Shown here piece after piece: positions 5,298-48,370 of a stretch of DNA of 64,000 nucleotides. Position numbers and translations under genes: made by a program. Location of the stretch: positions 2,671,501-2,735,500 of the forward strand of contig NZ_CP006877.1 of assembly GCF_000816845.1 (NCBI RefSeq), read 5' to 3'. The notes below the pieces were generated by a model. That model had not been told where the DNA came from and ran no database searches. It worked only from the letters and a program-made list of their open reading frames with translations. Each line of letters begins with the position of its first letter. The stretch's first letter is position 1. Source of the stretch: Rhizobium gallicum bv. gallicum R602sp (lineage in GTDB: Bacteria; Pseudomonadota; Alphaproteobacteria; Rhizobiales; Rhizobiaceae).

Positions 5298-7013
5298 TCA
5301 GTTCTTCCCGGCTCTCACATCCAGCACGCGGTTGGCCGCCGATACGATCGCTTCGAGCGAGGCGCCGACGATATTGGTGCTGATGCCGGCACCAAAGAGC
5401 TTGCCGCCGGGATAGGCGGTCTCGACGTAGGAGATGGCCGCCGCATTCGAGCCGTGCTGCAGGGAGTGCTCGGAGTAGTCTTCGACCGACATCTCGATGC
5501 CGAGATAGTGCGAGAGCGCGTTGATGAAGCCGTCGATGGGGCCGTTGCCGCGGCCCTCGATACGCTTCGTCTCGCCATTGTCGATAATCTCAGCGGCGAC
5601 GACACGCACGCCCTTGCGCTCTGGATCGGCGAAAGTGTGATGATCGACGAACTTGATGCGGCCCTCGGGCTGCGTCACGTAGCGCTCGATGAAGCGGTCG
5701 TAGATGCGGCGCGACGGCAGTTCCTTGCCTTCTTCGTCGGTGATGCGCTGGATGTCCTCGCGGAACTCGACCTGGAGATTGCGTGGCAAATTGAGCCCGT
5801 AGTCCTGCTGCAGGATATAGGCGATGCCGCCCTTGCCGGACTGCGAGTTGATGCGGATGATCGCTTCGTAGGAGCGGCCGACATCCTGCGGGTCGATCGG
5901 CAGATAGGGCACTTCCCACACCGGATGGTTAGCGACCTTGATCGCCTTCATACCCTTGTTGATCGCATCCTGATGCGAGCCGGAAAAGGCCGTGTAGACC
6001 AGTTCGCCGACATAAGGGTGGCGCTCGCCGATGGTCATCTGGTTCGAATATTCGAAGACGCTCTTGATGCGCTCGATATCGGAGCAGTCGATTTCCGGAT
6101 CGACGCCCTGCGTGAACATGTTGAGCGCCATCGTCACCACATCGACATTGCCCGTGCGCTCGCCGTTGCCGAAGAGCGTGCCCTCAACACGGTCGGCGCC
6201 TGCCAGCAGACCGAGCTCGGCTGCCGCAATACCGGTGCCGCGGTCGTTATGCGGATGCAGCGAGACGATCAGGTTCTCGCGATTGTCGAGATTGCGGCAC
6301 ATCCATTCGATCTGGTCGGCATAGACGTTCGGCGTCGCCATCTCGACGGTGGACGGCAGGTTGATGATCAGCTTGTTGTCCGCCGTCGGCTTCATCACGT
6401 CGATGACGGCATTGCAGATTTCCAGCGCCACTTCGAGCTCAGTACCGGTGAAGCTTTCCGGCGAGTATTCGAAGCGGTAGCCGCCACCGGCTTTCGCCGC
6501 CATGTCGGTGATCATCTTTGCCGCATCGACGGCGATCTGCTTGATACCCGGCACATCCTTGGCAAAAACCACGCGGCGCTGCAGCTCACTCGTCGAGTTG
6601 TAGAAATGCACGATCGGCTTGTTGGCACCCCGCAGCGCCTCGAAGGTACGGGTAATCAGTTCAGGGCGGCACTGAACCAGGACCTGCAGCGAAACGTCGT
6701 CCGCCACATTTCCTTCCTCGATGCACCAGCGCGCAAAGTCGAAGTCCGTTTGCGAGGCGGAGGGAAAGCCGATCTCGATTTCCTTGAAGCCCATGTCGAG
6801 CAGCAGCTGAAACATGCGAGCCTTGCGGTCATGGCCCATCGGGTCCACCAACGCCTGATTGCCGTCGCGAAGGTCGACAGAGCACCAGACCGGAGCCTTG
6901 CTGATCGTCTTCGTGGGCCAGGTGCGGTCGGGAATGTTCACCTGCGGGTACGGGCGGTATTTCACACCTGCGGATTGCATGCCTTTTGCGGGATTTTGCG
7001 TCTTCGCGTCCAT
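5298..7013 (-). CDS. leuA: 2-isopropylmalate synthase
   Basis: A 571-residue LeuA of the long form: a TIM-barrel catalytic domain near the N-terminus (WCSVDLRDGNQALVDPM at about 45-60; metal-site HPHND at about 250) and a C-terminal LeuA regulatory domain. It condenses acetyl-CoA with 2-oxoisovalerate, the first committed step of leucine synthesis, and the C-terminal domain gives leucine feedback inhibition. Start ATG 7013 has a purine-rich ribosome site (GAGGAAGAAG). A 156-base untranslated stretch and a Leu-rich leader peptide lie upstream, so transcription is probably controlled by leucine attenuation. It is convergent with the HxlR gene. Confidence 0.97.
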   Translation of the reverse strand: MDAKTQNPAKGMQSAGVKYRPYPQVNIPDRTWPTKTISKAPVWCSVDLRDGNQALVDPMGHDRKARMFQLLLDMGFKEIEIGFPSASQTDFDFARWCIEEGNVADDVSLQVLVQCRPELITRTFEALRGANKPIVHFYNSTSELQRRVVFAKDVPGIKQIAVDAAKMITDMAAKAGGGYRFEYSPESFTGTELEVALEICNAVIDVMKPTADNKLIINLPSTVEMATPNVYADQIEWMCRNLDNRENLIVSLHPHNDRGTGIAAAELGLLAGADRVEGTLFGNGERTGNVDVVTMALNMFTQGVDPEIDCSDIERIKSVFEYSNQMTIGERHPYVGELVYTAFSGSHQDAINKGMKAIKVANHPVWEVPYLPIDPQDVGRSYEAIIRINSQSGKGGIAYILQQDYGLNLPRNLQVEFREDIQRITDEEGKELPSRRIYDRFIERYVTQPEGRIKFVDHHTFADPERKGVRVVAAEIIDNGETKRIEGRGNGPIDGFINALSHYLGIEMSVEDYSEHSLQHGSNAAAISYVETAYPGGKLFGAGISTNIVGASLEAIVSAANRVLDVRAGKN

Positions 7014-7126
7014 TGTCTTCTTCCTCGTCCCGGCAATTTGCCCCGCGTCTTAGCCCATCGTGGCGGGCTTGGCGACAGCAAATGCGGACCTTGTTGGTCT
7101 ATGTTGGAATTCAGGGAATTCGTCGC

Positions 7127-7170
7127 GAGGAGCGATAGGCCGGCGGGCTTTCGGCCGCCGGGCGCTCCTC
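7127..7170 (-). promoter_or_regulatory. long hairpin in the leuA leader (attenuator element)
   Basis: An extended stem-loop. The outer arms GAGGAGCG (7127-7134) and CGCTCCTC (7163-7170) pair perfectly; the inner arms CCGGCGG and CCGCCGG extend the stem. The promoter-proximal arm (GAGGAG on the minus strand, 7170-7165) directly abuts the stop codon of the leader peptide. It can also pair with the CTTCTCCTC Leu codons at about 7199-7210. Two mutually exclusive pairings are what an attenuator needs. No clear U-tract follows, so this may be the anti-terminator or a pause element rather than the terminator itself. Confidence 0.6.
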
Positions 7171-7294
7171 AAAGGACCCGGCAACCGCGCGTAAGGCCGA
7201 GGAGAAGAAGCGACGTCAGGGCGCGCGTATTGTCACGCAGGGCAACGCGGCCGCGGACAATGGTGTCGGAAATCTTTGCGCCATTGGTCTTCAT
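7169..7294 (-). CDS. leuL: leucine leader peptide upstream of leuA (LeuL)
   Basis: A 41-residue frame from ATG 7294 to TGA 7169, in the gap between the BenE-type gene and leuA. The C-terminal part reads TSLLLLGLTRGCRVL: four consecutive Leu codons (CTT CTT CTC CTC), then two more Leu codons, one of them the last sense codon before the stop. It is immediately followed by a long hairpin. This is the classical layout of an amino-acid leader peptide: ribosome stalling at Leu codons when charged tRNA-Leu is scarce would change RNA folding ahead of leuA. A -10 box ends 7 bp before the ATG, so the mRNA probably starts at or within 1-2 bases of the ATG (leaderless). It is embedded in a longer open frame to 7690 that overlaps benE and is only a shadow. 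Confidence 0.75.
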   Translation of the reverse strand: MKTNGAKISDTIVRGRVALRDNTRALTSLLLLGLTRGCRVL

Positions 7295-7301
7295 GCCTGC
7301 G

Positions 7302-7330
7302 CTTATAGCTGCCGAACAAAAAAACGGCAA
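7302..7330 (-). promoter_or_regulatory. promoter of the leuL-leuA transcript
   Basis: On the minus strand, a -35 TTGCCG (plus positions 7325-7330), a 17-base spacer containing a run of seven T, and a -10 TATAAG (7302-7307). Seven bases separate the -10 from the leader-peptide ATG at 7294, placing the transcription start at the start codon. Spacing and both boxes fit a housekeeping sigma factor. Confidence 0.65.
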
Positions 7331-7338
7331 CCCCCCGC

Positions 7339-8523
7339 CTACTTTCTTGCCGCCTGAACGAAACGCGACAGCGCCAGCATCAACCCGCCGGCCACGAGCC
7401 CCCAGAACGCTCCGGAAATGCCGGCGAAGGAAACTCCCGATGCCGTCACCAGAAAGGCGATCGCCGCAGCCTCGCGCGATTCCGGCGCCTGAAAGGCGGC
7501 CATCGCCGATCCGGAGAAGGCGCCGACGAGGGCCAGCCCTGCGACTGCCTGAATCAGGATCGGCGGCGCCAAAGCCACAAAGGCTGTCACGACGCCGGCA
7601 AGCAGTCCGAACACCACATAGCCGGCGCCGGAGATCATCGCCGCCCAATAACGTCGCTGCGGATCTGCATGCGCGTCCTGCCCCGCACACATCGCAGCCG
7701 TGATCGCCGCCAGATTGACGGCATGGCCGCCGAAGGGCGCGGAAAGAACCGAAAAGAAGCCGGTGACGGCAAAGAGCGGCCCCGGCTTCGGATCATAAAG
7801 ATTGACCTTCAGTACCGCGATGCCCGGAATGTTCTGCGATGCCATGGTGACGATGAAGAGCGGAAGCGCGACCGAAACGAGGCCCGCAAGATTGAACACC
7901 GGGCGGACGATCTCGATTGTCGGCACAAGCGACCGCCCGATCGAGGCCAGCGCTCCGTCCGGAATGTCGATGCCGAATGTCAGCACCAGCGCGAAGACGC
8001 CGAGGGCGGCGGGCACTGCCCAGAGCCGCCTGAAGGCGCCGACGACGATCCAGGCGAGAATGATGGGCAGCCCGAGTAGCGGATTAAAGGCGATCGCCTT
8101 TACCGGCGCGAAGCAGAGGCCGAGCAGCACGCCGGCAAGCATGGCATTGGCAAGTGGCGCCGGGATCGCGGCGACCGCGCGGCCAAGCGGCTTGAAGAGG
8201 CCGGCGACGACGATCAGCACCGCGCAGATCAAAAAGGCACCGACGGCGGCATCGAACCCACCCTCGATCGCGCCGGTGCTCGCAAGAAGTGCTGCGCCCG
8301 GCGTCGACCAGGCAATGCTGACGGGAAGCCGTGTTACCGCGCTCAGCACGATGCCGCAGATGCCCATCGAGATCGACAGCGCCATAAGCCCCGAGGCCGC
8401 CTGCCCATCCGTTGCGCCCACTGCCTGCAATCCTTGCAGCACGACGGCAAAGGAACTGGCAAAGCCGACAAAGGCTGTGAGGACGCCCATGAACAGGGCC
8501 TGGACGGAAAAGTCTTTGAGCAT
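7339..8523 (-). CDS. BenE-family benzoate/H+ symporter-like permease
   Basis: A 394-residue integral membrane protein with about 11-12 hydrophobic helices and the BenE layout: an N-terminal ALFMGVLTAFVGFASSFAVVLQGL, a central SIAWSTPGAALLAS and a later PFGGHAVNLAAITAAMCAG. BenE proteins import benzoate with protons across the inner membrane. No benzoate catabolic genes are near, so the true substrate is open. The start at 8523 has only a weak ribosome site (GAGACG). It lies upstream of the leucine leader on the same strand but has its own gene end at 7339. Confidence 0.85.
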   Translation of the reverse strand: MLKDFSVQALFMGVLTAFVGFASSFAVVLQGLQAVGATDGQAASGLMALSISMGICGIVLSAVTRLPVSIAWSTPGAALLASTGAIEGGFDAAVGAFLICAVLIVVAGLFKPLGRAVAAIPAPLANAMLAGVLLGLCFAPVKAIAFNPLLGLPIILAWIVVGAFRRLWAVPAALGVFALVLTFGIDIPDGALASIGRSLVPTIEIVRPVFNLAGLVSVALPLFIVTMASQNIPGIAVLKVNLYDPKPGPLFAVTGFFSVLSAPFGGHAVNLAAITAAMCAGQDAHADPQRRYWAAMISGAGYVVFGLLAGVVTAFVALAPPILIQAVAGLALVGAFSGSAMAAFQAPESREAAAIAFLVTASGVSFAGISGAFWGLVAGGLMLALSRFVQAARK

Positions 8524-13932: not shown

Positions 13933-16122
13933 TCAAGCCGCCTTCGTCTTCGCCCTGCGCGCCAGATGCGCCACCACGTTCTCGATCATCCGCATGCCGG
14001 CGTCGCCGCCGAGCGTCATGATTGATTCCGGGTGGAACTGGACGGCGGCGATCGGCTCCTTCGCATGCTCGATGCCCATGATCGTGCCATCCTCGCTTTC
14101 CGCCGTGATGATGAAATCGCGCGGCAGGGTCGAGGGATCGGCGAAGATCGAGTGATAGCGGCCGACCGTCACCTCTCTCGCGAGGCCCGAGAAGACGATA
14201 CCCGGCTCCAGCACCCGGATGCGCGACGGCTTGCCGTGCATCGGCAGCGCCAGATGGCGCAACTCGCCGCCATAGGCTTCGGCGAGCGCCTGCAGGCCGA
14301 GGCAGACGCCGAAGATCGGCAGGTTGCGGGCGCGCGCCCTCTTGATCGTCGCCTTGCAATCGAAATCCTTCGGATTGCCAGGTCCCGGCGACAAGACGAC
14401 GAGGTCCGGGTTCAGCCGGTCGAAAATCTCCTCAGGCACCGGCGTGCGCACGGTCGAAACCGTCGCTCCGGTCTGACGGAAGTAATTGGCCAGGGTGTGG
14501 ACGAAGCTGTCTTCATGGTCGATCAAGAGGATGTTGACGCCCTTGCCGACGGCGGCAACGTCGCGCTGGATCTTGCCGGCGTTGCCGGTCTTGGCATCGC
14601 GGATGGCAGAAAGCATAGCGGAGGCCTTCAGTTCGGTTTCGGCTTCTTCTTCATGCGGGTCGGAATCGTTGAGAAGGGTCGCCCCTGCCCTGACTTCAGC
14701 GATGCCGTCCTTGATGCGCACGGTGCGCAACGTCAGCCCGGTGTTCATGTCACCGTTGAAGCCGACCATGCCGATCGCCCCACCATACCACGCGCGCGGG
14801 CTCTTCTCACGGCTTTCGATGAAGCGCATTGCCCAGAGCTTCGGCGCACCGGTGACGGTGACGGCCCAGGCATGCGACAGGAAGCCGTCGAAGGCATCCA
14901 TGTCATCACGCAAACGCCCCTCGATATGGTCGACGGTGTGGATGAGGCGCGAATACATCTCGATCTGCCGGCGGCCGATGACCTTGACCGAACCCGGCTC
15001 GCAGACGCGGCTCTTGTCGTTGCGGTCGACGTCCGAGCACATCGTCAGCTCGGATTCGTCCTTCTTGGAGTTGAGCAGCTTCAGTATCTGTTCGCTGTCG
15101 GCGATCGGGTCATCGCCGCGCTTGATCGTGCCGGAGATCGGGCAGGTCTCGATGCGGCGGCCCGAAACGCGCACGAACATTTCCGGCGAGGCGCCGACCA
15201 GATATTCCTGGTTTCCGAGGTTGATGAAGAAAGAATAGGGCGACGGGTTGATCGCCTTCAATCGCTTGGAAATATCCGAAGGCTTGCTGTCGCAGCGCTC
15301 CATGAATTTCTGTCCCGGAACGACCTCGAAGAGATCGCCCTTGCGGAAGCTTTCCTTCGCCTTGACGACGAGTTCGGCATATTCGCCCGGCCGATGGTCG
15401 CTCTTCGGCGGAATGGCGTCCGTCTGCTTGAAGGGCTCGGGCGCGATTTCGCCCTTCTTGCCCTCGGTCGTCTGGCCGTCTTTGGCGAAATCATAGCGGT
15501 CGATCCAGGCCTTGGCGGAATAGTTGTCGACGACAAGGATTTCGTCCGGCAGGTAGAGCACCATGTCGCGCTGATCGGTAGGGCGCGTGAGCTTCAGGTT
15601 GATCGCATCGAACTGGAAGGCGAGATCGTAGCCGAAGGCGCCATATAGGCCGAGGCTGGCGTCCGCCTGCGAATAGAAGAGGTCGGTGACCGCGCGCAGA
15701 ACGGTGAAGACTGTCGGCATCTTCGAGCGTTCTTCTTCGGTGAAAACGCGATCGGGCATCTTCACCTTGAGATCGAGGCGGCGCGCGGTGGCAGCACCAA
15801 GCTCCAGCTCGGCAACGGTCTTCAGCCGCTCCGTCACGAAGCCGAGCAGCACTTCGCCGCGCTCGTTATAAGCTTCGATCCAGAGGTCGCGCCCGAAAGA
15901 GGAGATGCCGAGCGGCGGATCGACGACGGCCGTGTCCCAGCGCGTGTAACGACCCGGATATTCGTAGTTGGAGGAAAAGACCGCGCCGCGACGCTCATCG
16001 AGCTTGTCGACATAGGAGACCACGGCATCGGCATAGGGGATCGCCCTGCGCTGCCGGGTAACGGTGACCCCGCCCCTCGTCTCGTAGATTTCCGCACCAT
16101 CGTCCCTAAGGATCGTTACCAT
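13933..16122 (-). CDS. trpE(G): anthranilate synthase, fused TrpE-TrpG
   Basis: A 729-residue fusion, the form and length known from rhizobia. Residues 1 to about 510 are the chorismate-binding TrpE part ([53 protein letters not shown]). The rest is a class I glutamine amidotransferase: [15 protein letters not shown] with the nucleophile Cys, and [10 protein letters not shown] with the His-Glu pair. It makes anthranilate from chorismate and glutamine, the first step of tryptophan synthesis. The gene lies downstream of a Trp leader peptide and a rho-independent attenuator, so it is regulated by tRNA-Trp charging. Confidence 0.97.
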
Positions 16123-16168
16123 TGTTCCACTCCGTTATCGGGGCCCGGACGACACGCGGCCTTAAAGA

Positions 16169-16200
16169 CAAAAAAAGCCGCCTCGAAGTCTCGGGCGGCT
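16169..16200 (-). terminator. trp attenuator terminator
   Basis: On the minus strand AGCCGCC (plus 16194-16200) pairs with GGCGGCT (16176-16182) and is followed directly by a run of T (16170-16175, TTTTTTGTC). It lies between trpL and trpE(G). Upstream GGCGGCC (about 16230-16236) just after the trpL stop could pair with part of the stem to make the anti-terminator. Confidence 0.85.
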
Positions 16201-16237
16201 CACTCGTCGTCTTTGAACACGATTGGTCGAGGCCGCC

Positions 16238-16282
16238 TCAGCGAGCCCACCACCAAACAGCAATGTTCAACGACGTCTTCAT
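16238..16282 (-). CDS. trpL: trp leader peptide (TrpL)
   Basis: A 14-residue frame, MKTSLNIAVWWWAR, ending in TGA at 16238. Three consecutive Trp codons near the end are the stalling site. It matches the rhizobial trpL arrangement known from Sinorhizobium meliloti (14 residues ending WWWAR). There, the attenuated transcript rnTrpL also works in trans as an sRNA and the peptide has its own role; whether this holds here is inference. The -10 box ends 7 bp before the ATG and no ribosome site is present, consistent with a leaderless mRNA. It is too short for normal gene callers. Confidence 0.9.
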   Translation of the reverse strand: MKTSLNIAVWWWAR

Positions 16283-16289
16283 GGGAGGA

Positions 16290-16318
16290 TTGTTAGCGTG
16301 AGATGGGGGCAAGCGCAA
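16290..16318 (-). promoter_or_regulatory. promoter of trpL-trpE(G)
   Basis: On the minus strand: -35 TTGCGC (plus 16313-16318), a 17-base spacer and -10 TAACAA (16290-16295). The leader ATG starts 7 bases after the -10, so transcription should begin at the A of ATG. Confidence 0.65.
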
Positions 16319-47356: not shown

Positions 47357-48370
47357 TCACTTGTGCAGGGCACTGCGCAGCGTGTCGCTGGCAAGCGTGA
47401 TGGCGCTGCGGACGGCCGGGGTTTCGCTGATGGCGTTCAAGAGCACGAAGTCGTGGATCGTGCCGTTGTAGCGGACCGAGGTGACCTTCACGCCGGCCTG
47501 CGAAAGCTTGCGGCCATAGGCCTCGCCTTCGTCGCGCAGCACGTCGTTCTCATCGGTGACGATCAGTGCCGGCGGCAGGCCGTTCAGCTGTTCCAGCGAA
47601 GCGTTGAGCGGTGTTGCCGTCGGGTCCTTGCGCTTGGCTTCGTCCGGCAGATAAGCGTTCCAGAACCACTTCATCGCTTCCTTGGTGAGCCACGGGCCGT
47701 TGGCGAATTGATTGTATGAGCGGGTCTCAAAATTCGCGTCGGTGACCGGGTAGAACAGTACCTGTTGCTTGAGGGCCGGGCCGCCGCGCTCCTTGGCAAG
47801 CAGGGTGACGGCCGCCGTCATGTTGCCGCCGACGCTGTCACCGGCAACGGCTACGCGGCTCGCATCGACCTTGAACTCGTTGGCATGCTCCACGACATAC
47901 TTCGTTGCGGCATAGGCCTGCTCGATGGCGATCGGATAGCGCGCCTCGGGCGAACGCTCGTAGTCGACGAAAACGACCGCAGCATTGGCGCCATTGGCAA
48001 TCTCACGGACGAGGCGGTCATGCGTATCGGCATCGCCCAGCACCCAGCCGCCGCCGTGGAAATACATAACGACCGGCAGCGCGCCCTTGGCATTTTCAGG
48101 GCGGATGATCCGGAGCTTGATGCTGCCCGTCGGGCCGGCCTTGACCGTCCTGTTTTCTTCATGGACTGCGGGCTTCTTCACCTCGCCCTTCTGCGCGCCG
48201 GCGAGAATATTGCGGGCCTCAGCCGGAGAGAAGGTATAGATCGGCTTGCTGCCGGCAAGTGCATCGATGAATTTCTGCGTGGCCGGCTCCAGCACGGGAT
48301 CGGCAGCGGCGCCAAGGGCCGAGGCGGCCAGGATCACGGCTGTGGAAAGTGCGGTCTTGATGGTCGACAT
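47357..48370 (-). CDS. secreted esterase/lipase of the hormone-sensitive-lipase type
   Basis: A 337-residue alpha/beta hydrolase with a signal peptide (residues 1-23, ASALGAAA). The HGGGW oxyanion-hole motif is at about residue 106, the nucleophile motif GDSVGGN at about 177, DEND (Asp) and HDF (His) near the C-terminus complete the triad. It hydrolyses short acyl esters, probably in the periplasm. It is divergent from an OhrR-like regulator with operator-like repeats between them, so it is likely that regulator's target. Confidence 0.92.
   Translation of the reverse strand: MSTIKTALSTAVILAASALGAAADPVLEPATQKFIDALAGSKPIYTFSPAEARNILAGAQKGEVKKPAVHEENRTVKAGPTGSIKLRIIRPENAKGALPVVMYFHGGGWVLGDADTHDRLVREIANGANAAVVFVDYERSPEARYPIAIEQAYAATKYVVEHANEFKVDASRVAVAGDSVGGNMTAAVTLLAKERGGPALKQQVLFYPVTDANFETRSYNQFANGPWLTKEAMKWFWNAYLPDEAKRKDPTATPLNASLEQLNGLPPALIVTDENDVLRDEGEAYGRKLSQAGVKVTSVRYNGTIHDFVLLNAISETPAVRSAITLASDTLRSALHK

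Follow-up and report, generated by a model that had tools for sequence, protein, structure and literature searches.

Attenuators built on a leader peptide generally evolve rapidly and are confined to a single lineage. The enterobacterial leu leader, which we take to be Rfam family RF00512, and other terminator attenuators combine Leu codons in a leader peptide with competing helices; T-boxes dispense with a leader peptide, since they bind uncharged tRNA themselves. The closest described system is the LEU element of Actinobacteria (Seliverstov et al. 2005), in which a Leu uORF is combined with a pseudoknot and an alternative hairpin, and the Leu codons form a base stem with the leuA Shine-Dalgarno (SD) sequence (PMC1262725). 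The excerpted text of that paper leaves the mechanism open, proposes protein binding with a helicase as the candidate, and reports close homologs of this candidate from Actinobacteria only. It also cites Streptomyces leader mutations whose effects misfit classical attenuation and states that Leu-codon mutations have no regulatory influence. The LeuL1 leader of S. lividans is reported to be leaderless and, in the excerpts of its source, has no typical terminator (PMC8079986), and leuA leaders have been reported from Corynebacterium (excerpts of PMC4046766 and PMC5784534).

Judged from its sequence, the leuL region upstream of leuA in the window (the whole 64,000-nucleotide stretch of Rhizobium gallicum DNA analyzed here) has the anatomy of the actinobacterial LEU element. 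A uORF with a run of Leu codons lies upstream of leuA, a pseudoknot follows directly, an alternative hairpin is present, a terminator is absent, and the Leu codons are predicted to be complementary to the leuA SD, a pairing that swapped SDs achieve nearly as well. As in S. lividans LeuL1, the start is leaderless, here by prediction (PMC8079986, in excerpt). In contrast to the actinobacterial element, the hosts are Proteobacteria, the leaders have 38-41 codons in 72 of 80 loci against 13-16 in five actinobacterial loci, which agrees with the unusually long leader peptide of the original prediction, and leuA starts a median of 149.5 nt past the leader stop, with further structure between. Unlike the enterobacterial leu leader, leuL has no U-tract terminator, contains a pseudoknot, and is predicted to be leaderless.

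A known Rfam family was rejected as the identity of the element, with no match above its gathering score: window positions 6800-7600 gave three matches of 13.6-18.1 bits against gathering scores of 40-145 and no leu leader at E<=10, and six loci gave no match at E<=0.5. Among the open PubMed Central papers listed, none was seen to describe a proteobacterial LEU element or a leader before rhizobial leuA, which is not proof of absence.

The leuL leader and its promoter

The features of the leader and its gene in the window are as follows.

5298..7013, minus strand: leuA, 2-isopropylmalate synthase of the TIGR00970 type, 571 aa (768 bits, above the curated cut-off)
7169..7294, minus strand: leader ORF leuL, 41 codons with 8 Leu, predicted leaderless, reading MKTNGAKISDTIVRGRVALRDNTRALTSLLLLGLTRGCRVL up to its stop codon
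7193..7210, minus strand: regulatory codons LLLLGL (CUU CUU CUC CUC GGC CUU), of which 7198-7210 are the predicted partner of the leuA SD
7302..7330, minus strand: leader promoter as read from the sequence, with -35 TTGCCG (7330-7325), a 17-nt spacer, and -10 TATAAG (7307-7302)

The 41-codon Leu-rich frame that had been foreseen before leuA is present, separated from the gene by 155 nt, and it behaves as coding. At least 593 LeuA relatives were confirmed, and the best 80 were kept for comparison of their upstream regions; one of these (L075) came without upstream DNA, so that 79 relatives and the window make up 80 loci, all from Hyphomicrobiales genera or rhizobial/alphaproteobacterial assemblies. 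The leuL leader and the RNA core were found in all 79 relatives with upstream DNA among these best 80 of at least 593, one locating pass for the leaders having used a list of C-terminal motifs read off an earlier listing of the same loci. Forty of the loci encode a leader of 41 codons; in a further 32 it has 38-40 codons, and in the last 8 it has 23-37.

Substitution patterns indicate that the leuL ORF is conserved as a protein and is under purifying selection. Over codons 2-26, the in-frame median of dN/dS is 0.30 for 103 pairs drawn from 15 close leaders, against a +1-frame median of 1.14 for 34 pairs; the +2 frame gave no usable pair. Each leader carries 4 to 9 Leu codons, which form the most conserved part of the peptide: residues 29, 30, 32, and 34 are Leu in 40 of 40 leaders of 41 codons. 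CTT accounts for 55% of the 505 Leu codons in leaders against 18% of 128 in three neighboring genes. The comparison of orthologous leuA upstream regions that had been suggested as a check thus returned both conserved Leu codons and, as described below, compensatory changes in the helices. A Leu as last codon, present in the window, fell away as a defining trait, since only 13 of the 40 leaders of 41 codons end in Leu and 24 end in Arg. The conserved peptide end, GCRV or GDRR, evidently also serves as RNA, because the last codons form the covarying arm of a helix, P1.

The promoter-like pair noted earlier was confirmed in the window, where the -10 box TATAAG ends 7 nt ahead of the leuL ATG, and +1 is predicted at or beside this ATG. 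The motif TTG-N16..18-TA, ending 5-9 nt before the leader ATG, occurs in 79 of the 80 loci (at 7 nt in 52). Of 830 further ATGs in these regions, 1 has it, and an SD-like motif stands ahead of the leader ATG in only 1 of 80. The count of 79 is somewhat favored by the choice of start codons, which came from a length list made with the help of promoter likeness among in-frame ATGs; this bias cannot explain it, given a control rate of only 1 in 830. The placement of the promoter therefore speaks for the leaderless leader that the original prediction had assumed.

The leader -35 box also lies inside a terminator-like hairpin with a T-run (7322-7340, minus strand), so that the two signals share bases; this hairpin probably terminates the upstream benE-like gene.

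Alternative helices around the leader stop codon

Five features of the RNA around the leader stop are referred to below.

7177..7187, minus strand: 5' arm of helix P1, CGGUUGCCGGG, formed by the last leuL codons (covariation)
7164..7169, minus strand: AGGAGC in the P1 loop, overlapping one base of the stop codon, the 5' strand of the pseudoknot or outer P2 helix (covariation)
7152..7162, minus strand: shared strand CCCGGCGGCCG, serving as the P1 3' arm or as the inner 5' arm of P2 (covariation, folds, energies)
7128..7133, minus strand: GCUCCU, the 3' strand of the pseudoknot or outer P2 helix (covariation)
7127..7170, minus strand: alternative hairpin P2, made of an outer and an inner helix, with no U-tract behind it (folds, U-tract test)

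In helix P1, CGGUUGCCGGG and CCCGGCGGCCG form 11 bp with the stop codon inside the loop, and AGGAGC in that loop pairs with the downstream GCUCCU as a pseudoknot. Alternatively, CCCGGCGGCCG pairs downstream and, joined to the AGGAGC:GCUCCU helix, gives the single hairpin P2. P1 and P2, as derived from covariation and folding, are mutually exclusive, being alternative pairings of the same strands. The hairpin that had been noted as abutting the stop codon is thus present as P2, which begins at the stop codon and reaches -29.5 kcal/mol in the window. Its first arm had been thought to pair alternatively with the Leu codons, and such a pairing (GAGGAG with CUCCUC) is possible in the window, but the conserved alternative is P1, which involves the last four codons.

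Covariation was evaluated in an alignment (A1) of 72 of the 80 loci, from which 8 near-duplicates had been dropped by eye, leaving 71 distinct sequences in the test. P1 and the pseudoknot together have 99.5% of 1207 cells paired, with double changes at 6 of 17 pairs; shuffles equaled this in 0 of 500 cases on four of five measures and in 18 of 500 on the fifth, the number of pair types. Sliding the partner columns by 1-3 positions lowers pairing to 33-53%. For the AGGAGC:GCUCCU helix, 98.8% of cells are paired, with double changes at 3 of 6 pairs. A wider alignment (A4) of 75 sequences, which was fitted to P1 and hence leans towards it, gave 97.9% of 804 P1 cells paired, double changes at 9 of 11 pairs, and 0 of 500 shuffles on all five measures. 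Under a fixed placement in the 80 loci, all 11 P1 pairs are present in 76, 10 in one, and 7 in three.

Energies of cognate arms point in the same direction, with relatedness ignored: P1 reaches -20.39 against -17.92 for permuted partners and inner P2 -13.22 against -12.65, each unmatched in 5000 permutations, the signal for P2 being weaker. Folds of the 72 sequences contain both the outer and the inner P2 helix in most cases, not all. P1 is scarce in free RNA. Its population in the window is only 0.01, and masking the Leu codons in silico moved a broader count from 0.14 to 0.00, with no rise; over 79 loci, the mean changed only from 0.38 to 0.44. P1 would consequently have to form co-transcriptionally or on translated RNA.

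A further hairpin, GCAUUUGC with GCAAAUUGC (7033-7085, minus strand), precedes the leuA SD and appears by eye to be conserved in Rhizobium and Sinorhizobium.

Proposed masking of the leuA Shine-Dalgarno sequence and competing explanations

We propose, with a probability of about one half, that this rhizobial form of the LEU element is a switch that senses stalled ribosomes and controls the initiation of translation, not termination at an intrinsic site. The last leuL codons, the stop codon, and the bases that follow would constitute a three-strand RNA switch before leuA. With plentiful leucine, the ribosome would reach the stop codon and open P1, allowing P2 to form; after its release, the Leu codons would mask the leuA SD, and little leuA would be translated. 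With leucine in short supply, the ribosome would stay on the Leu codons, leaving the SD free and leuA translated. The distance to P1 is 11 nt from the end of LLLL and 5 nt from the last CUU, so that, given the footprint of a ribosome, P1 should stay accessible when stalling occurs at the first Leu codons and be opened by a ribosome at the stop codon. In this way leuL and the RNA fold together would probably let the cell make LeuA only under leucine shortage, a leucine dependence that we infer from the codons. Amino-acid supply is likewise read as SD masking by the translational T-boxes before actinobacterial ileS (excerpt of PMC1262725). The Streptomyces results on leader and Leu-codon mutations count against the stall-sensing reading, as do the median 149.5 nt that separate leuA from the leader stop and the scarcity of P1 in free RNA.

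The predicted target of masking is the following.

7017..7027, minus strand: leuA Shine-Dalgarno region CGAGGAAGAAG, complementary to Leu codons 7198-7210

In the window fold, these codons pair with the SD at a probability of 0.91. Over 79 of the 80 loci (one was too long), the mean pairing is 0.55 (about 0.547), compared with 0.505 when SDs are swapped between species. Masking the Leu block raises mean SD accessibility in these 79 loci from 0.247 to 0.487, while a ribosome at the stop codon gives 0.265 and a control mask 0.262; the gain exceeds 0.05 in 63 of 79 loci on Leu masking (it falls below -0.05 in 4) and in 16 of 79 with the control mask. Against the Leu block, the leuA SD scores -24.2, compared with a mean of -15.1 for 46 mechanically called window ORFs, which are partly spurious and among which leuA itself is displaced by an antisense frame; one of them scores slightly better, at -24.3. 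Cognate complementarity is -17.22 against -16.62 for non-cognate pairs (permutation p 0.0136, relatedness ignored). The stem may simply reflect pairing of CU-rich with AG-rich sequence, since swapped SDs still pair. We therefore regard masking of the leuA SD by the Leu codons as plausible on the basis of these folding models, and selection for such masking as a possibility.

Regarding termination, no conserved intrinsic terminator was detected between leader and leuA: with a detector that allowed one mismatch and no bulge, terminator-like sites occur in 3 of 80 loci against 2, 0, 4, 5, and 4 in shuffles. Counting T directly in the bases that follow P2 is more reliable, because the bulged terminator of a trp attenuator in the same window escapes the simple promoter/terminator scan. 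This count reveals no U-tract, with a mean of 2.44 T in 8 nt and five or more T in 4 of 80 loci, and an intrinsic terminator after leuL was rejected on both grounds. The trp region, compared here through the sequence as read, is described in the following line.

16282-16238, minus strand: trpE(G) leader reading MKTSLNIAVWWWAR up to its stop codon, then a hairpin with TTTTTTTG (region 16120-16300)

This textbook-like attenuator, about 9 kb from leuL, resembles the S. meliloti trpL attenuator (excerpt of PMC10117765), and both share a leaderless leader ORF before a rhizobial biosynthetic gene with leuL, whose leaderless start is predicted. The trp hairpin ends with a T-run (16176-16170); that of leuL does not.

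An absent intrinsic terminator would suit control by Rho: as in other cases where a uORF controls Rho, translation of the leader would govern Rho-dependent termination, or mRNA decay, within the approximately 115 nt that separate P2 from leuA. Bases 6-12 after P2 contain little G and much C and A, as a Rho-loading stretch could, and stalling or release of the ribosome would alter the exposed RNA. Judged by eye, the distance from P2 to leuA is no more than some 30-40 nt in L094, L101, and L102, three of the five actinobacterial loci, and is longer in L103, which makes Rho unlikely as a shared mechanism, and we consider this explanation improbable overall.

Less probable still is classical transcription attenuation, with P1 as an antiterminator formed on stalling at the Leu codons and P2 as an intrinsic terminator. 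The order of the helices and the stall position fit its logic, P2 is very stable and starts at the stop codon, and T-rich stretches are visible by eye behind the element in both Cupriavidus loci (L098, L106). Yet the hairpin after the leuL stop lacks the U-tract that the window's trp attenuator possesses, terminator-like sites are no more frequent than in shuffles, and the S. lividans LeuL1 leader also has no typical terminator in the excerpts of its report (PMC8079986). The sequence therefore does not support classical terminator attenuation at leuA, and the leucine-controlled attenuation of the original prediction survives as a Leu leader with mutually exclusive helices, without its terminator.

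If the RNA were instead a protein-binding site, as proposed for LEU in 2005 with a helicase candidate, the peptide would be secondary. By eye, the loop and strand sequences (GGAGCGYCCGGCGGYCG) seem kept beyond the needs of pairing, which such a site would explain; the conservation of the peptide is nevertheless greatest at its Leu codons, the ORF is under purifying selection, and the part order also occurs in Proteobacteria, while the excerpted report restricts close helicase homologs to Actinobacteria (PMC1262725). We consider this very unlikely. It is equally improbable that the element is conserved but constitutive, the leader merely boosting expression through its leaderless start and ribosome recruitment and the hairpins protecting the mRNA: this would agree with the open literature, in which we met no measured rhizobial regulation, but not with 4 to 9 Leu codons placed directly before mutually exclusive covarying helices and upstream of the first leucine-specific enzyme.

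The stall-sensing switch could be explored in a tractable host. Ribo-seq in S. meliloti captures leaderless leaders (excerpt of PMC10117765), and this species, whose strain Ak57 carries the element as locus L105, lends itself to asking whether a ribosome stalled on the leader governs the start of translation further along the RNA. The rhizobial set pins down the helices through covariation and weakens the idea that the actinobacterial candidate protein is required.

Occurrence beyond the rhizobial set

Three covariance models were used: R1, built only from Hyphomicrobiales and other alphaproteobacterial loci; R2, which includes Nonomuraea; and R3, a less specific model described below. Their E-values are rough. 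The R. gallicum genome contains a single copy of the element at E<=1, and a weak R1 match at window positions 48170-48256 (16.5 bits) was taken as chance.

Five actinobacterial leuA loci, one each from Nonomuraea, Nocardia farcinica, and Microbacterium and two from Tsukamurella, were drawn from database records labeled as plasmids. With stops picked by eye, all five have the same part order: a Leu leader of 13-16 codons, a P1 of 11-12 bp whose loop contains the stop codon, and the loop helix. Their combined score was matched by 0, 1, 0, 3, and 0 of 177-198 shuffles, in which the by-eye choice of stop was not repeated. R1, built without actinobacterial loci, detects the Nonomuraea locus with an E-value of 0.0042 when 28.5 kb are searched and of 0.038 when 258 kb are searched. 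R2 finds three of the four other loci at E 0.0018-0.0054, and the Microbacterium locus is missed by both R2 and R3.

Elsewhere in the Proteobacteria, two Cupriavidus loci carry P1 and the loop helix, one detected by R2 at E 0.014 (L106) and the other only at E 1.2 (L098), with scores reached by 1 of 184 and 1 of 191 shuffles; a Sphingomonas locus (L104) has an R2 E of 0.024 and a score reached by 0 of 193. Plasmid-borne second copies of leuA with an element of their own occur in Shinella (L096, E 4.6e-9 already with R1; L107, E 1.5e-6), Ochrobactrum (L108, 1.4e-7), and Rhizobium (L112, 8.7e-6). No model matched near leuA in Burkholderia arboris (L095), a Streptomyces plasmid (L097), or Paenibacillus (L109).

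In a class sample of 385 alphaproteobacterial genomes, 110 have this leuA at E<=1e-150 (104 above the cut-off). R1 detected nine genomes of the sample including that of R. gallicum, with six of the other eight matches at leuA. The 110 comprise 7 R1-positive genomes, 4 left out (one without upstream DNA and three partial matches), and 99 whose regions were scanned, some of them shortened by contig ends. At E<=0.01, R2 matched the coding strand in 25 of these 99 and the opposite strand in none; among its weaker matches, four lie on the opposite strand, and the strongest of these has E 0.064. Once the 25 had been included in R3, this model added 13 of the remaining 74 at the same threshold, likewise without any on the opposite strand. 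Altogether, the models detect the element in 45 of the 110 genomes with this leuA type, where 3 of the 38 R2 and R3 matches (L195, L209, L213) lie further upstream and may belong to another leucine leader. The order scan gave 27 of 297, and in the phylum scans R2 and R3 each gave 19 of 398; leuA adjoins 19 of 21 loci checked from the order and R2 phylum scans, one of the 19 belonging to another class (L136). R1 matches L086 and L087 and R2 matches L137 and L138, where leuA is not adjacent, were attributed to chance.

These data point to a leuA element whose part order is kept across phyla and which has no terminator. A broader picture is quite conceivable, and we offer it tentatively: a leaderless leader with a pseudoknot switch, absent from Rfam, would be common to Actinobacteria, Alphaproteobacteria, and Betaproteobacteria, having travelled with this leuA type or being as old as it; stalling at the Leu codons would unmask the SD, and in many Alphaproteobacteria another leucine leader would precede the element, the two making up a sensor with two stages.

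A scan of the same 99 regions for the hairpin/ORF architecture was too strict (10 of 99, with 0 on the reverse strand and 0, 1, 1, 1, and 2 in shuffles), and the covariance models were used instead. A motif scan of these regions recovered a Leu-leader-like ORF on the coding strand in 64, with two in 5 of them, and on the reverse strand in 7.

Inspection by eye places a second leucine leader some 140-210 nt upstream of the LEU-like one in 11 alphaproteobacterial loci (L140, L145, L158, L159, L163, L172, L173, L197, L198, L199, L208) and often ends in ..LRL[TI]xPA before the stop codon, or similarly. Second model matches are also present in L144, L150, L156, L167, L179, and L193. The Nonomuraea record (NZ_LT559118.1, L094), 11.85 Mb in length and filed as a plasmid, looks like a chromosome. 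In Paenibacillus (L109), the same leuA type is preceded, as judged by eye, by a stretch that resembles a T-box with terminator (AGTGGTACCGCG, later a T-run).
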